Under the pieces are notes generated by a model. It worked only from the letters and a program-made list of their open reading frames with translations. It did no database searches and was not told the origin of the DNA. Shown piece by piece: positions 7,977 through 52,164 of a stretch of DNA of 64,000 nt. The stretch is from Tunicatimonas pelagia (GTDB lineage Bacteria > Bacteroidota > Bacteroidia > Cytophagales > Cyclobacteriaceae). How positions within the stretch are numbered: the stretch's first letter is position 1; the number at the start of each line of letters is the position of its first letter. The stretch covers positions 1,240,001 to 1,304,000 of the forward strand of contig NZ_CP120683.1 of the NCBI RefSeq assembly GCF_030506325.1. The letters run 5' to 3'. A program made the position numbers and the translations under genes.

Positions 7977-8762
7977 TTAAGCGTATTGCACAGCTTCTTT
8001 CACCCAAACGGGTACTTTATGCTCTCGCACTACTTCTCCAATTACAATGATGGCTGGAGCCTGCAACCCCTCTTCAGCAGCCATTTCGGTCATAGTGCTT
8101 ACGGTAGCTATTCCTACTTTTTCTTCGGGCAAAGAACCATTTTGAATGATGGCTACGGGAGTATCACACTGTCCGTAGGTTTCAAAGATTGATTGAATTT
8201 TACTTAGTTGGCGCATTCCCATTAGAATTACTACCGTAGCGGTAGATTGAGCCGCCAACGCTACATCCTGCGATAACGAGCCGCGACGGGTGGTTCCGGT
8301 AATGACCCAGAAGCTCTCGCTCACTCCTCGCCGGGTGAGCGGAATAGATTGCAGAGCCGGAACCGAGTAGAAGGAACTGATACCCGGCACCACCGAAACG
8401 GTTATATCATACGATTCAGCGTAGGTTTGTTCTTCATGTCCTCGTCCAAAAATATAGGGGTCACCACCCTTCAACCGCACTACGTGGCCATAGTGGCGCG
8501 CACAGTGAACGATCAGCTCGTTGATTTCTTCTTGAGATTTGTATTTTCCGCCGCCTCGTTTTCCTACGTAAATTCTCGGAACGTTCGGTCGAACGTACCT
8601 TAACAATTCTTCATTCGCTAAGGCATCGTACAGTACAATATCAGCTTCCTGCAAAGCCCGCGTTCCCTTGAGTGTAATTAACTCTGGGTCACCCGGCCCG
8701 GCTCCTACTAATGTGAGCCGAGGTATTTTATTTACTGTAGCCGTTAATAATACTTTGCTCAT
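7977..8762 (-). CDS. cobA: uroporphyrinogen-III C-methyltransferase, 261 aa
   Basis: SAM-dependent tetrapyrrole methyltransferase. Near residue 16 is the family N-terminus LVGAGPGDPELITLKG, followed by VRLKGGDPYIFGRG at about residues 96-109 and VVPGISSFYSVPA; all are hallmark SUMT motifs. It methylates uroporphyrinogen III at C2 and C7 to precorrin-2, the first step to siroheme. Its start overlaps the end of the sulfite reductase gene by four bases, so the pair is probably translationally coupled, and siroheme is the prosthetic group of that reductase. The length fits a stand-alone SUMT, not the CysG fusion; the dehydrogenase/chelatase part is not in this window. Confidence 0.94.
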   Translation of the reverse strand: MSKVLLTATVNKIPRLTLVGAGPGDPELITLKGTRALQEADIVLYDALANEELLRYVRPNVPRIYVGKRGGGKYKSQEEINELIVHCARHYGHVVRLKGGDPYIFGRGHEEQTYAESYDITVSVVPGISSFYSVPALQSIPLTRRGVSESFWVITGTTRRGSLSQDVALAAQSTATVVILMGMRQLSKIQSIFETYGQCDTPVAIIQNGSLPEEKVGIATVSTMTEMAAEEGLQAPAIIVIGEVVREHKVPVWVKEAVQYA

Positions 8763-10876
8763 GATGCTGAAACGGTAAGCTGTTCTTGACGCACCTGCTG
8801 AACCTTCTCTAGAAAATCTTGCGCTTGCTGCAAGTATTCTTTTGCAAAATCAGCACTAGGCTCTACTTTGTTCAGTTGTAGCACAGTGTTTTCAAAAGAA
8901 TCGCTTAGTTCCAGTAACGGATGCTGACCAAAGTGCTCGCCGAACAAGCGAATGATACTCATTTGCGTATTTGTCTTTACATCGTTGGATAACAGCAGCG
9001 CTTTTGCCCCAACTACGAATGAATTATAAGCGTGGTAAATCGCATCGGCGTAGTGCTGCTCCTGGAAGTTTTCCTTCGCCCAACCGAGTTTCTCTTCCGC
9101 TTCGTAAAACAACGTAGCTACCAAGTCAATAATGACTCCGGCACACTCGCCTACTCCGGCTTCTACTTTAAAATTTTCTTGGGCGTGTCCCCAGTCAAAG
9201 TATTCGTCATTCGCTACTTCATCCAATTCCGTGAGTGGTTTCAGTAGATGATAGAAGTACATCTTACCTTGCCGTTGGTAATAATCCGCGTAGTACTCCC
9301 CGTCTAGCTGATTTTCTTCGTAATCGTCAAATAAGGTTCTCAGTAGCTGAGGAGCACGCTTACTTGGCGTTTTCAGCAGTTTTTCGGCCACCCGACCTTG
9401 TCCGTTACCGTCTACTCCCCCGCCCAACAAAACTTGCAAAGCCGGAACTACCCGCTTTTGCTTGTCCTTCAGTGAGCTGCCGTGAAAGCCGATGCTGGCA
9501 ATACCGTGCTGCCCACAGGAGTTAGGACATCCGCTAATTTTTATCTTGATGTCTTGATTTTTTACCAGATCAGGGTACTCCTCATAAATTACTTTTTCTA
9601 GTGCCGAAGAAACTCCGGTACTGTTCGAGATTCCCAAATTACAAGTATCGGTTCCGGGGCAAGCAGTGATGTCGGCTACGCTATCAAAGCCTGGGTCAGC
9701 TAAATCTAAACCTTTCAGAGAAGTATACAGTGCCGGTAAGGCTTCAGGACGGACGTAACGCAGCAATAGCCCTTGGTTGATGGTAATTCGGATATCGTCT
9801 GAAGCCAGCCAGTCAATAATGGTAGCTAGCTTACGAGCGGTAGAAGTGCTAATATCGCCTAGGGGCACTTTAATAAATACTCCGTAGAAACCAGCTTGTT
9901 TCTGCTCAAATACGTTGGTCGCTTTCCACAGCGCGTAAGCCGCTTCGTCCTGAATTTTGGCATCTACCAGATTTATATCTTCCGCAAGCTGATGTTCCGG
10001 CACTTGGGTAGTATCTACGCTGTAGCTCTTCACCTTCAACGCGGCCCACTCTTCTTCCACCAACTTCATTAATGCTTCCAGGCCGAGCGATTGTAACAAA
10101 AACTTCATCCGGGCTTTACCGCGTTTGTTCCGCTCGCCGTGGCGGTCAAATACCCGCAGCACCGCTTCGGTAAATGGAATAAGCTGATCTTCGGGTAAAA
10201 ACTCGTGAGCTACTTGCGCCAGATGGGGTTGCGCTCCCAAACCACCGCCAAGCATTATTTTAAACCCCCGCTCTTCTTTTTCGTCAACGGTTCGCACCTT
10301 CGGAATGGCTCCAATGTCGTGAATGAAGGTAAAGGCAGAATCCTTCTCACTAGAAGAAAAAGCAATCTTAAACTTACGCCCCATCTCCTGGCACACCGGG
10401 TTCCGCAGAAAGTACGTAAACATTTCCTCGGCGTAAGGCGATACATCAAACGGTTCTTCGGGATCAATACCCGCTTTAGGCGAAGCCGTAATATTGCGAA
10501 CAGTATTTCCGCAGGCTTCTCGCAGGGTAATTTTATCTTTTTCTAGCTGCGCCCACAGTTCGGGCGTACGATCCAGACTGACGTAGTGAATCTGAATATC
10601 TTGGCGGGTGGTGAGGTGTAGATTTCCACTGGCGTATTCATCTGAGACATCGGCGATACGGAGTAACTGTTTAGGCGTAACCCGCCCGAACGGTAATTTT
10701 ATGCGTACCATTTGCACACCAGGCTGACGCTGACCGTATACGCCCCGAGCCAAGCGAAGGCTACGGAAACGGTCATCGTCTATCTTTCCTTCCTGGAATA
10801 ATCTGATTTTCCGCTCCAGATCAATAATGTCGCGCTCTACGACGGGGTTTTCAATTTCGGTTCTAAAACTCTGCAT
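8759..10876 (-). CDS. ferredoxin-type nitrite/sulfite reductase with C-terminal HEPN-like extension, 705 aa
   Basis: Siroheme and 4Fe-4S reductase. Two ferredoxin-like half domains (about 45-130 and 320-390) alternate with the siroheme-binding halves. The cluster and siroheme cysteines are in TACPGTDTCNLG (Cys406, Cys412) and SGCPNSCGQ (Cys450, Cys454). The core ends near residue 560; residues about 570-700 form an all-helical region with an AEEKLGWAKENFQEQ..ADAIYHAYNSF pattern that resembles HEPN domains, making it longer than the usual 550-600 residues. It probably reduces sulfite to sulfide for cysteine and homocysteine synthesis; nitrite use cannot be excluded. Coupling to the SUMT gene and the upstream Cys-codon leader (10973-11089) with terminator argue for assimilatory sulfite reduction. 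Start ATG at 10876 lies 20 bases after the terminator U-tract. Confidence 0.92.
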   Translation of the reverse strand: MQSFRTEIENPVVERDIIDLERKIRLFQEGKIDDDRFRSLRLARGVYGQRQPGVQMVRIKLPFGRVTPKQLLRIADVSDEYASGNLHLTTRQDIQIHYVSLDRTPELWAQLEKDKITLREACGNTVRNITASPKAGIDPEEPFDVSPYAEEMFTYFLRNPVCQEMGRKFKIAFSSSEKDSAFTFIHDIGAIPKVRTVDEKEERGFKIMLGGGLGAQPHLAQVAHEFLPEDQLIPFTEAVLRVFDRHGERNKRGKARMKFLLQSLGLEALMKLVEEEWAALKVKSYSVDTTQVPEHQLAEDINLVDAKIQDEAAYALWKATNVFEQKQAGFYGVFIKVPLGDISTSTARKLATIIDWLASDDIRITINQGLLLRYVRPEALPALYTSLKGLDLADPGFDSVADITACPGTDTCNLGISNSTGVSSALEKVIYEEYPDLVKNQDIKIKISGCPNSCGQHGIASIGFHGSSLKDKQKRVVPALQVLLGGGVDGNGQGRVAEKLLKTPSKRAPQLLRTLFDDYEENQLDGEYYADYYQRQGKMYFYHLLKPLTELDEVANDEYFDWGHAQENFKVEAGVGECAGVIIDLVATLFYEAEEKLGWAKENFQEQHYADAIYHAYNSFVVGAKALLLSNDVKTNTQMSIIRLFGEHFGQHPLLELSDSFENTVLQLNKVEPSADFAKEYLQQAQDFLEKVQQVRQEQLTVSAS

Positions 10877-10896
10877 GGTTTAGAAGATTGGGTAAT

Positions 10897-10925
10897 AAAA
10901 AAAGCCTTTCCTGACGGAAAGGCTT
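10897..10925 (-). terminator. intrinsic terminator inside the sulfite reductase leader (attenuator)
   Basis: On the minus strand a perfect 10-bp stem, AAGCCTTTCC (read in RNA sense from 10925) with GGAAAGGCTT, closes a 4-base GTCA loop and runs into a seven-U tract. It lies between the leader ORF stop at 10973 and the reductase ATG at 10876, so it can only stop transcription before the structural gene. Its 5' arm also pairs with leader sequence at 10983-10996, giving an alternative structure that would prevent termination. Confidence 0.88.
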
Positions 10926-10996
10926 AGGGTCTATTTTAAGTAATTTTCTACTGATGTATCATCTGAACGTACTTAATCTACACCTAATACTTTCCG
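10915..10996 (-). promoter_or_regulatory. predicted antiterminator competing with the terminator
   Basis: Read on the minus strand, CGGAAAG and TTAGG (10996-10983, within leader codons 31-36) pair with CCTAA and CTTTCCG (10928-10915). This gives 7 bp plus 5 bp separated by a 2x2 internal loop. The 3' arm contains the 5' half of the terminator, so the two structures exclude each other. A ribosome stalled at Cys24 or Cys25 of the leader would leave the 5' arm free, whereas one that reaches the stop would cover it. Pairing was found by eye; no folding energies were computed. Confidence 0.75.
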
Positions 10997-11089
10997 GTTA
11001 AGAAAAGGCATCTGACAACACCAAAACCAGCACGCGCAGCGACGAGCAGCAATTAGTTTTTCGTTGGTGGCAGAAAATAGGTGCAACAT
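10973..11089 (-). CDS. Cys-rich leader peptide of the sulfite reductase operon, 38 aa
   Basis: Short ORF ATG 11089 to TAA 10973, with its start 13 bases after the predicted transcription start. The middle reads RRCACWFWCCQM (residues 16-27): four cysteines in eight residues, plus two tryptophans and a methionine, in a peptide with no other sign of a folded domain. It is followed by a mutually exclusive antiterminator and terminator and then by the sulfite reductase and siroheme genes, whose products supply sulfide for cysteine. This is the arrangement of a ribosome-mediated transcription attenuator: low charged tRNA-Cys stalls the ribosome on the Cys codons and allows read-through. The mechanism is inferred by analogy with trp, his and actinobacterial cysteine leaders. 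Confidence 0.8.
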   Translation of the reverse strand: MLHLFSATNEKLIAARRCACWFWCCQMPFLNRKVLGVD

Positions 11090-11108
11090 TAATTAAACAT
11101 TCAGATTA

Positions 11109-11139
11109 CAATGATACGTTTTGTTATGAACTTTTCAAA
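11109..11139 (-). promoter_or_regulatory. promoter of the Cys leader / sulfite reductase operon
   Basis: On the minus strand TTTG (11139-11136), then 19 bases, then TATCATTG (11116-11109), which differs by one base from the Bacteroidota -7 element TAnnTTTG. Spacing is identical to the stronger matches before actA, tRNA-Cys and rpsA. It predicts a start near 11102, about 13 bases before the leader ATG. Confidence 0.6.
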
Positions 11140-11150
11140 AAATCTGGGCT

Positions 11151-11198
11151 AAACTTCCGAAGTTTAAATAAGGTATCCTCTAAAACCTTCGGAAGTTT
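11151..11198. repeat. 12-bp perfect inverted repeat (AAACTTCCGAAG)
   Basis: AAACTTCCGAAG (11151-11162) and CTTCGGAAGTTT (11187-11198) flank a 24-base loop. It lies just downstream of the trxA stop and upstream of the sulfite reductase promoter. No strong U-tract follows directly on the minus strand, so it may be a weak or factor-assisted terminator of trxA or a dispersed palindrome. Confidence 0.65.
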
Positions 11199-50847: not shown

Positions 50848-52164
50848 TTAAGTATGATGATGTAAACTCTCTTGCAACATTGGGTGGTTACGAGCCACCA
50901 ACGGTGCTTTAGCTAGATTACCTAGCACGACAAATAGGAAGGCGGAAAGGTAAACCATAGCTAATCCAACTTCCAGAATACCAAAATTTCCATTTTCTTT
51001 TAGGACGCCAGGTGTTACCATCAGGTAAAAGTCCAGCCAGTGCCCGACTAGCACTACCACACAAACGACCTTGATAATTATTGTATGTCGTTTAGAATCC
51101 CTTGTCATAAAAACCAGGAAGGGAAAGAAGAAGTTCAGGATTAGGTTGATGAAGAATATAGGTGAATAGTAGTCACTATTCAACCGTTCCACAAAATAAA
51201 TGGTTTCTTCAGGAATGTTGGCGTAATAAATTAGCAAAAACTGACTAAACCACACGTACGTCCAGAAAATACTGAAGGCAAAAACGAATTTTCCCAGGTC
51301 GTGTAGGTGGCTAGAATTGATGATGGTCAGGTAGCCCGCCTCCCGTAACAAAACTACCATTAAAGTAATAGCAGCTAAGCCCGACACAAACCAACTAGCA
51401 AACACGTACCATCCAAACATAGTACTAAACCAGTGAGTATCAATTGATAGCACCCAATCCCAAGCCGAAGTAGAAGATGTTACGGCAAATATGATAATGA
51501 AGATCGTTGAGTATTTTACCATTTTGTGAAAATGGCTTACCCCACCCAGCTTGTCTTCAGCTAACGACTCTTTCCGAATATAGCGATACATCATATACCA
51601 GAGCACAAAGTACAATACCATACGGCCAAGGTAGAATGGAATATTCAAGTAAGCTTGCTTGCCAGCGATAATGTAGTCGTAGCGGGGATCACTCTCATCG
51701 TACAGGTAACTATGTGTCCAGTGAAATAGATTGCTATGGCTAAGCCAAGCTACTACAAATACTACCAGCATTAGCACTCCAGCGTAAGGTAGCCAAGCCC
51801 CAAAAGCTTCGGGTATCCGCTTAATAGAGGCAGACCATCCGGCCTGAGCCGCATATTGCAAAGCAGTGAAGAATAATCCGACTACTGCTAGTCCGGTGAA
51901 GTACACATTGTTAATCCACAAGTTGGTAAACAATCTTTCGTACCAATGAAACTCGTGGCCTTCTCCGCCGTGGGCTCCCTCAGCTGCTGCTCCAGCAACT
52001 TCAGCTTCGTGGCCATGACCACCGCCCCAAATCATTAAGTACAGTAATCCCAGTACAAATAGCACTGCTCCAACTATCCCGATAATAGTGAGCTGCTTTT
52101 TAATACTACTAGTAAATTGGAAGTACTCTTCCTGTACACTTTCTGTAGATGTATGAGTCGCCAT
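50848..52164 (-). CDS. actF: alternative complex III subunit ActF, 438 aa
   Basis: About ten helices in a layout like NrfD/ActC. The N-terminal cytoplasmic part is short; the region EAEVAGAAAEGAHGGEGHEFHWYERL is a histidine-rich loop after the first helix, and KRIPEAFGAWLPYAG, SWFVSGLAAITLMV and FWTYVWFSQFLLIYYANI are family motifs. ActF is the second large membrane subunit of alternative complex III and helps to form the menaquinol-binding side. It lies 21 bases before coxB, so the act genes run into the oxidase genes as one unit. Confidence 0.9.
   Translation of the reverse strand: MATHTSTESVQEEYFQFTSSIKKQLTIIGIVGAVLFVLGLLYLMIWGGGHGHEAEVAGAAAEGAHGGEGHEFHWYERLFTNLWINNVYFTGLAVVGLFFTALQYAAQAGWSASIKRIPEAFGAWLPYAGVLMLVVFVVAWLSHSNLFHWTHSYLYDESDPRYDYIIAGKQAYLNIPFYLGRMVLYFVLWYMMYRYIRKESLAEDKLGGVSHFHKMVKYSTIFIIIFAVTSSTSAWDWVLSIDTHWFSTMFGWYVFASWFVSGLAAITLMVVLLREAGYLTIINSSHLHDLGKFVFAFSIFWTYVWFSQFLLIYYANIPEETIYFVERLNSDYYSPIFFINLILNFFFPFLVFMTRDSKRHTIIIKVVCVVVLVGHWLDFYLMVTPGVLKENGNFGILEVGLAMVYLSAFLFVVLGNLAKAPLVARNHPMLQESLHHHT

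Follow-up and report, generated by a model that had tools for sequence, protein, structure and literature searches.

A candidate cysteine-codon attenuator with a conserved leader peptide upstream of the sulfite reductase gene in Tunicatimonas pelagia and other Bacteroidota

Introduction

In the Tunicatimonas pelagia chromosome, a short reading frame rich in Cys codons and an intrinsic terminator stand one after the other in front of a sulfite reductase gene, sir. What might such an arrangement do, and is it peculiar to this genome? The locus lies in a stretch of 64,000 nucleotides, hereafter the window, and a preliminary description had proposed that charged tRNA-Cys is sensed there by ribosome stalling. 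We regard it as highly probable that a translation-coupled transcription attenuator, reading the supply of charged tRNA-Cys, controls sir and the following gene, cobA. The proposal finds support in the comparison of ten related sites and in the Cys-codon leaders of other Bacteroidota.

Organization of the locus

On the minus strand of the window, the order is trxA (11531-11208), leader ORF, intrinsic terminator, sir and cobA. The leader ORF, recognized by reading-frame translation and by related leaders in other genomes, comprises 38 codons plus a stop (10973-11089, minus strand) and, read from 11089 to 10973, encodes the peptide MLHLFSATNEKLIAARRCACWFWCCQMPFLNRKVLGVD followed by the stop. As the preliminary description had it, four Cys codons fall within eight (11036-11038, 11030-11032, 11018-11020 and 11015-11017), and the last two form the predicted stall site (11015-11020, minus strand). 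The sulfide-producing operon that it placed downstream is likewise recognizable: sir (8759-10876, minus strand, ATG at 10876) encodes a sulfite reductase of 705 aa with NIR_SIR domains, and its end overlaps by 4 bp with cobA (7977-8762, minus strand), coding for the uroporphyrinogen-III C-methyltransferase of the siroheme pathway. At least four Cys in eight codons are found in 3 of the 1465 window ORFs of 8-60 aa, the leader being one of these; the two further short frames are at 52117 and 56546 on the plus strand.

Two minor features can be recorded here. The sir product bears a C-terminal HEPN domain (Pfam PF05168, E 8e-8) and, directly 3' of trxA, positions 11151-11198 hold an inverted repeat with 12-nt arms (AAACTTCCGAAG / CTTCGGAAGTTT), which is probably the hairpin of the trxA 3' end.

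A candidate promoter of the Bacteroidota type spans 11109-11139 of the minus strand, with TTTG at 11139-11136, a spacer N19 and TATCATTG at 11116-11109. This weak match would place the RNA start about 12-15 nt 5' of the leader ATG, in agreement with the position of about 13 bases proposed earlier, but taken alone it is no better than chance at 5% (p 0.10); considered jointly, the promoter matches of nine sites reach p 0.0017.

Mutually exclusive RNA structures

The perfect 10-bp terminator reported just before the sir ATG was recovered by the terminator scan. Specifically, the intrinsic terminator (10895-10925, minus strand; -15.5 kcal/mol) consists of a stem of 10 pairs at 10925-10902 and a U-rich tail, with TTTTTATT following the stem, and lies 25 nt before the sir ATG. 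The alternative pairing said to exclude it can also be read from the sequence: an antiterminator strand (10983-10996, minus strand) pairs with a shared strand (10915-10928, minus strand) that is at once its partner and the 5' arm of the terminator. In particular, 10996-10983 (CGGAAAGTATTAGG) and 10928-10915 (CCTAAGCCTTTCCG) form 7 plus 5 bp flanking a 2-nt mismatch, with a duplex energy of -16.3 kcal/mol and a shuffle p of 0.007.

Folding of the leader RNA, which the preliminary description had suggested as a check, makes the two structures alternate with the position of the RNA end and with masking. An RNA reaching from 12 nt past the last Cys codon to just beyond the 5' arm folds as the antiterminator (-23.6 kcal/mol, z -4.4); once the 3' arm is added, the terminator is more stable (-28.3 kcal/mol, compared with -23.6 for the shorter RNA), and when the leader is masked to beyond its stop codon the terminator folds. 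As the terminator wins whenever its 3' arm is present, antitermination must be kinetic, as it is in trp. The minimum-energy fold of the window contains, in addition, a possible hairpin of 11007-11002 with 10995-10990 (10990-11007, minus strand), which could sequester the antiterminator strand in the absence of a stalled ribosome.

We infer from the sequence that the promoter is used and the leader translated, that ribosomes stall and transcripts terminate there, and that cysteine sets the outcome. In the mechanism that we propose, RNA polymerase would start shortly 5' of the leader ORF, with a ribosome trailing it. When cysteine is ample, the ribosome would clear the Cys codons, reach the stop codon and partly cover the antiterminator strand, the terminator would form and sir-cobA would stay untranscribed. 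When cysteine is scarce, the ribosome would stall at the Cys codons with its front edge short of the antiterminator strand, which would then pair with the terminator 5' arm before the 3' arm exists, thereby letting the polymerase enter sir-cobA. The locus displays the sequence features by which attenuators of amino-acid operons are recognized, namely codons for the amino acid of the pathway, a terminator before the gene and an antiterminator that shares the terminator 5' arm just past those codons.

An intrinsic terminator upstream of a sulfur gene marks the kind of place in which riboswitches and T-boxes lie too, and the present one could belong to such a switch, the ORF being incidental. At its cut-off, however, Rfam gave no match in the leader region, the sole match in the window being a tRNA elsewhere, and it is the Cys codons, and no other motif, that recur among relatives; we judge this explanation very improbable. 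Six sub-threshold matches obtained with permissive Rfam settings, the best being Phe_leader with 22.4 bits against a cut-off of 55, were rejected.

Leaders of the same type in other genomes

The preliminary description had set the conservation of Cys codons and pairings in relatives among the tests on which its proposal should stand or fall. Ten sites with a leader of the (K/R)RCxCWxWCC type were collected, nine before sir and one, G068h, before the gene for PAPS reductase (cysH), and the leader is conserved in families other than that of the window. In a protein search, seven of 291 genomes of the order yielded sites with E < 1e-4, eight in all, namely the window, two in G068, and one each in G047, G102, G031, G141 and G014; at E<=1 as many as 160 genomes match, and the weak matches, a few of which were read, were taken as chance. 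When 390 genomes of the order were scanned for a codon pattern, 22 places were returned; they included these eight sites, and the remaining 14 were judged chance from their letters alone. A pattern scan of public genomes returned at least 116 stretches and, among the matches listed, L120 (a Bacteroidetes MAG) and L159 (a Cyclobacteriaceae MAG) were accepted. Finally, an HMM search with the leader in 395 genomes of the phylum, scoring at most 19 candidates per genome, gave matches at E<=0.01 in 16 genomes; seven of the 15 beyond the window were read and none of these was leader-like.

The leader, its Cys codons, the terminator and the mutually exclusive pairing do recur in relatives. Cys codons are kept at all ten sites, although for two of them the search motif partly demanded this, and a strong terminator (-13.1 to -20.8 kcal/mol) is present at nine; G014 has only a hairpin of -8.6 kcal/mol and no scorable antiterminator. 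Given that the MAFFT alignment misplaced the antiterminators, precluding column-wise covariation, pairing was scored by duplex energy against dinucleotide shuffles of the stretch between the Cys codons and the terminator. The antiterminator beats the shuffles at p<=0.05 in seven of the ten sites, the others being G068h (0.07), G031 (0.26) and G014 (1.0). The combined p of 2e-7 counts both G047 and G102, which are near copies, and all p values ignore shared ancestry. In eight of the nine sites with a strong terminator, the antiterminator strand starts 6-17 nt 3' of the last Cys codon, and in G068h it starts 3 nt from it. Given the usual ribosome footprint, this start would sit just ahead of the front edge of the stalled ribosome.

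Compensatory changes, which the preliminary description had recommended looking for in the hairpins, were found to a limited extent. The arms vary together in G047, G102 and G031, where CCTTCCC is matched with GGGAAGG or GGGAAGA, and in G141, where CCTCTCCC is matched with GGGACAGG; the covariation is nevertheless modest, because several of the changes are G-U tolerant. In G047 (L005/L218) and G102 (L006/L221), the first terminator is followed by another U-tailed hairpin ahead of sir.

The sir proteins of the nine leader genomes, two of these proteins being partial, are 58-78% identical to one another (99% between G047 and G102). Among 48 sir proteins placed in a tree, those with a leader share one group of 13 rows with three f11 rows and G481 (support 92/56), and no leader of the RRCxCWxWCC type was seen in G481. 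On these sequences, a single origin of this leader followed by losses is compatible with the tree, which is no proof of it.

Conservation of the leader peptide

The preliminary description foresaw neither that the peptide preceding the Cys codons is also conserved nor that such leaders are frequent. The ratio pN/pS was computed from nine of the ten sites, G102 being dropped as a near copy of G047, and synonymous sites are saturated among them (pS 0.74). Over the 12-codon stretch that closes with the last Cys (at 11015 in the window), pN/pS is 0.17 (bootstrap 0.13-0.23), 0.27 when Cys codons are left out and 0.39 (0.27-0.60) without both Cys and Trp codons. This stretch includes the conserved core A-R-R-C-A-C-W-F-W-C-C with all four Cys codons (11015-11047, minus strand). 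Further upstream, at codons -20 to -13, the ratio is 0.63 (0.49-0.86), and across the six codons that follow the last Cys it is 1.09 (0.90-1.45); in G014 the peptide ends one residue past the last Cys. Selection thus seems to act on the residues made before the stall and not on those made after it. Part of the conservation is ascertainment, because eight sites were found by peptide similarity and two by a motif demanding Cys and Trp codons.

Amino-acid conservation and a cysteine-rich motif could also befit a small protein with a function of its own, for example metal or sulfur binding through CxCWxWCC, the terminator merely limiting read-through. Against this stand the exact end of conservation at the last Cys codon, the early end of the G014 peptide, the recurrence of the antiterminator pairing with its spacing, and the unrelated Cys-run leaders that occupy the same place. 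In addition, the leader peptide has no match in NCBIfam (six members searched), nor has that of the window in Pfam or PDB. Accordingly, we hold a separate protein function to be improbable. A Pfam match to SinI in one of the six leader members (E 0.17) is at chance level.

Conservation that ends at the stall site hints, with the same caveat on ascertainment, at a role of the nascent peptide. Arrest peptides such as TnaC and SecM keep Trp and Arg residues before their stall site; the window leader keeps Trp and Arg as well, while its stall is presumably set by the Cys codons. The nascent (K/R)RCxCWxW, lying beside the catalytic centre, might reinforce or modulate stalling at the CC codons, or make the stall respond to a sulfur metabolite. 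Such a role would complement the attenuator, not substitute for it. The purifying selection before the stall site that this reading predicts is found (0.17 up to the last Cys, 1.09 downstream), with synonymous sites saturated and most sites having been found through similarity to this very peptide, so that the signal is partly ascertainment. A motif-independent scan of 107 sir loci gave six leaders of the RRCxCWxWCC type, 17 quite different ones and no half-way forms, again in line with an arrest peptide. Nonetheless, poly-Cys leaders with unrelated peptides manage without it, some of them in the same families as the RRCxCWxWCC type (G186 in f15; G054 and G136 in f4), and we put the idea forward only tentatively, as a possibility on the unlikely side.

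Cys-run leaders at other sir loci

The attenuator reading does not depend on the conserved peptide alone, as Cys-codon leaders of other kinds precede sir elsewhere in the phylum. In the order, sir is present in 143 of 291 genomes, and 107 loci besides that of the window were picked across genera, with duplicates and one 60-base region removed. By a strict criterion, a short ORF with CCC or four Cys in eight codons within 560 nt upstream of sir, a Cys-run leader is found at 23 of the 107 loci, compared with none of the 107 on the antisense strand and 0.8 expected from shuffles; the other 84 loci have no leader by this criterion. Besides the six of the RRCxCWxWCC type, the 23 include 17 other Cys runs, with up to ten Cys in a row (L310). 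These controls also bear on whether the window leader might be a Cys-rich frame that arose by chance ahead of an unremarkable terminator, a view for which the two other window frames of similar composition could be cited. The ten related sites, the empty antisense strand and the conservation all contradict it, which makes coincidence scarcely credible.

Antiterminators of the poly-Cys type were assessed in 13 leaders, twelve picked with a terminator in view and one that proved to be without; p<=0.05 was reached in 8 of the 12 scored, with a combined value of 2e-9. Tandem pairs of leaders, each followed by its own terminator, precede sir in L298, L303 and L368, and L384, from the family of the window itself, has two leaders and one detected terminator. 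Leaders ending in 5-7 Cys codons right at the stop were observed in L380, L385, L436 and L438, where the best hairpin is not a U-tailed terminator; another mode of control is likely at these loci.

In family f23, 61 of 81 genomes carry sir, at 62 places, of which 60 were scanned (one region at a contig end and one second copy were left out) for a terminator within 75 nt of the ATG and, in the 145 nt preceding the terminator, a short ORF containing a Cys pair. A Cys-pair leader is present at 17 of the 25 terminator-bearing loci and at none of the 35 without terminator (Fisher p 2.8e-9, shared ancestry ignored). In the antisense control, the counts are 0 of 25 and 1 of 35, respectively, and shuffles of the 25 terminator loci predict 1.5. 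Among the eight exceptions, Cys codons are single or spaced in L188, L193, L249, L252 and L254 and missing from L239, L243 and L256. Individually, the f23 antiterminators are weak (p<=0.05 in 2 of 17), with a combined p of 1e-4.

The trait is patchy. In eight longer regions that were read, covering same-family cysD/cysN-sir and flavobacterial operons, there was no such leader, and six flagged Cys-pair frames (two in L223, one in L224, one in L225 and two in L230) were judged chance, lying over genes or far from sulfur genes.

Cys-run leaders before other genes

Runs of five Cys codons were sought in 17 chosen genomes and, among the matches listed, 30 loci and 20 further stretches were read. 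Cys-run leaders were found, within these matches, before cysH (L408, L434, L436), metY (L413, L438), cysM (L445, L446) and genes for TonB-dependent receptors (L415, L435). In 14 of the 20 further stretches, including all five TGY5 stretches of the window genome, the run lies over long ORFs and was rejected as a leader; L401 and L418, from the same genome, are without a short frame. No second leader was found in the window genome before cysD and cysH within the stretches read, that for cysD, a gene directly after cysC, ending short of the true start of the operon.

Genome G054 has four Cys-run leaders (before sir, cysH, metY and a receptor gene), none with a U-tailed hairpin as its best hairpin; a second mode of control, Rho-dependent or translational, may therefore act there. 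Judged by these sequences, the poly-Cys leaders before several sulfur genes look like a regulon read by ribosomes. A more far-reaching scheme would be a cysteine-limitation network of leader ORFs in Bacteroidota (sir, cysH, metY, cysM and TonB-dependent receptors), in one branch of which the leader turned into the conserved arrest peptide (K/R)RCxCWxWCC, the nascent chain and the hunger for Cys codons together setting the stall. We rate this combined scheme as rather doubtful, its odds being lowered by the fact that leaders found by similarity must look conserved in peptide.

Relation to known systems

In enteric attenuators of the trp and his type, the leader contains codons for the amino acid that the operon produces, and antiterminator and terminator share one strand. 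The window differs from these in the amino acid and the phylum, Bacteroidota promoters are different and, as for a protecting 1:2 hairpin, only the fold of the window shows one. For mycobacteria, Canestrari et al. in 2020 reportedly described polycysteine short ORFs with Cys-responsive ribosome attenuation at several sulfur loci; these are said to be leaderless, with the start codon at the RNA 5' end, and to act by unmasking the ribosome-binding site of the next gene. In the window, a short 5' leader is predicted from a weak promoter match, and an intrinsic terminator is present.

A comparable arrangement is uORFC-8-2, a motif that Brewer et al. (2021, PMC8632094) describe upstream of the cysS gene of Rhodobacterales, where a short ORF with tandem Cys codons is followed by an intrinsic terminator and the authors propose stalling at low charged tRNA-Cys followed by read-through. 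The succession of Cys-codon ORF and intrinsic terminator is common to both, whereas the window belongs to another phylum and its leader precedes sir instead of cysS. The likeness is one of description: the Cys codons of uORFC-8-2 lie inside the first stem and, in the available part of the article, no conserved peptide similar to RRCxCWxWCC is mentioned. Cys leaders in actinobacteria, to which the preliminary description had alluded, are indeed documented, as Seliverstov et al. (2005, PMC1262725) report runs of Cys codons in leader ORFs that precede the sulfur assimilation genes of actinobacterial cys operons; in the accessible portion of their report, no conserved terminator hairpins are found and Rho is suggested. 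The window, unlike these, has a terminator, and the terminator-less poly-Cys leaders of G054 and others resemble them more.

The earlier remark that no well-studied Bacteroidota case of this form was known agrees with our search, in which, among the open-access papers listed, no Cys-codon attenuator of this phylum was recognized; the main text of a survey of premature terminators (PMC2965389) contains neither the word Bacteroid nor the word sulfite. Cys-codon attenuators are already known or proposed elsewhere, and what appears to be new is the Bacteroidota variant with a conserved peptide.

If the proposed attenuator is real, several sulfur genes of some Bacteroidota would be preceded by short leader ORFs on which ribosomes sense cysteine, accompanied by terminators in some lineages, seemingly lacking them in others and sometimes arranged in tandem. 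The window would offer a definite example that is simple to test and, thanks to the conserved peptide, the contribution of codon sensing could be separated from that of the nascent chain inside a single family.

Further regulation upstream of the leaders is suggested by a group of loci, L187-L194, in which an element like CTACTAATTCC..TATA, common by eye, lies near the promoter 5' of the leaders. In several loci, a regulator-like gene beginning with MLSKKTKYAIKAL, which we take to be of the Rrf2 type, stands 5' of sir, and a transcription factor may act there beside the attenuator.
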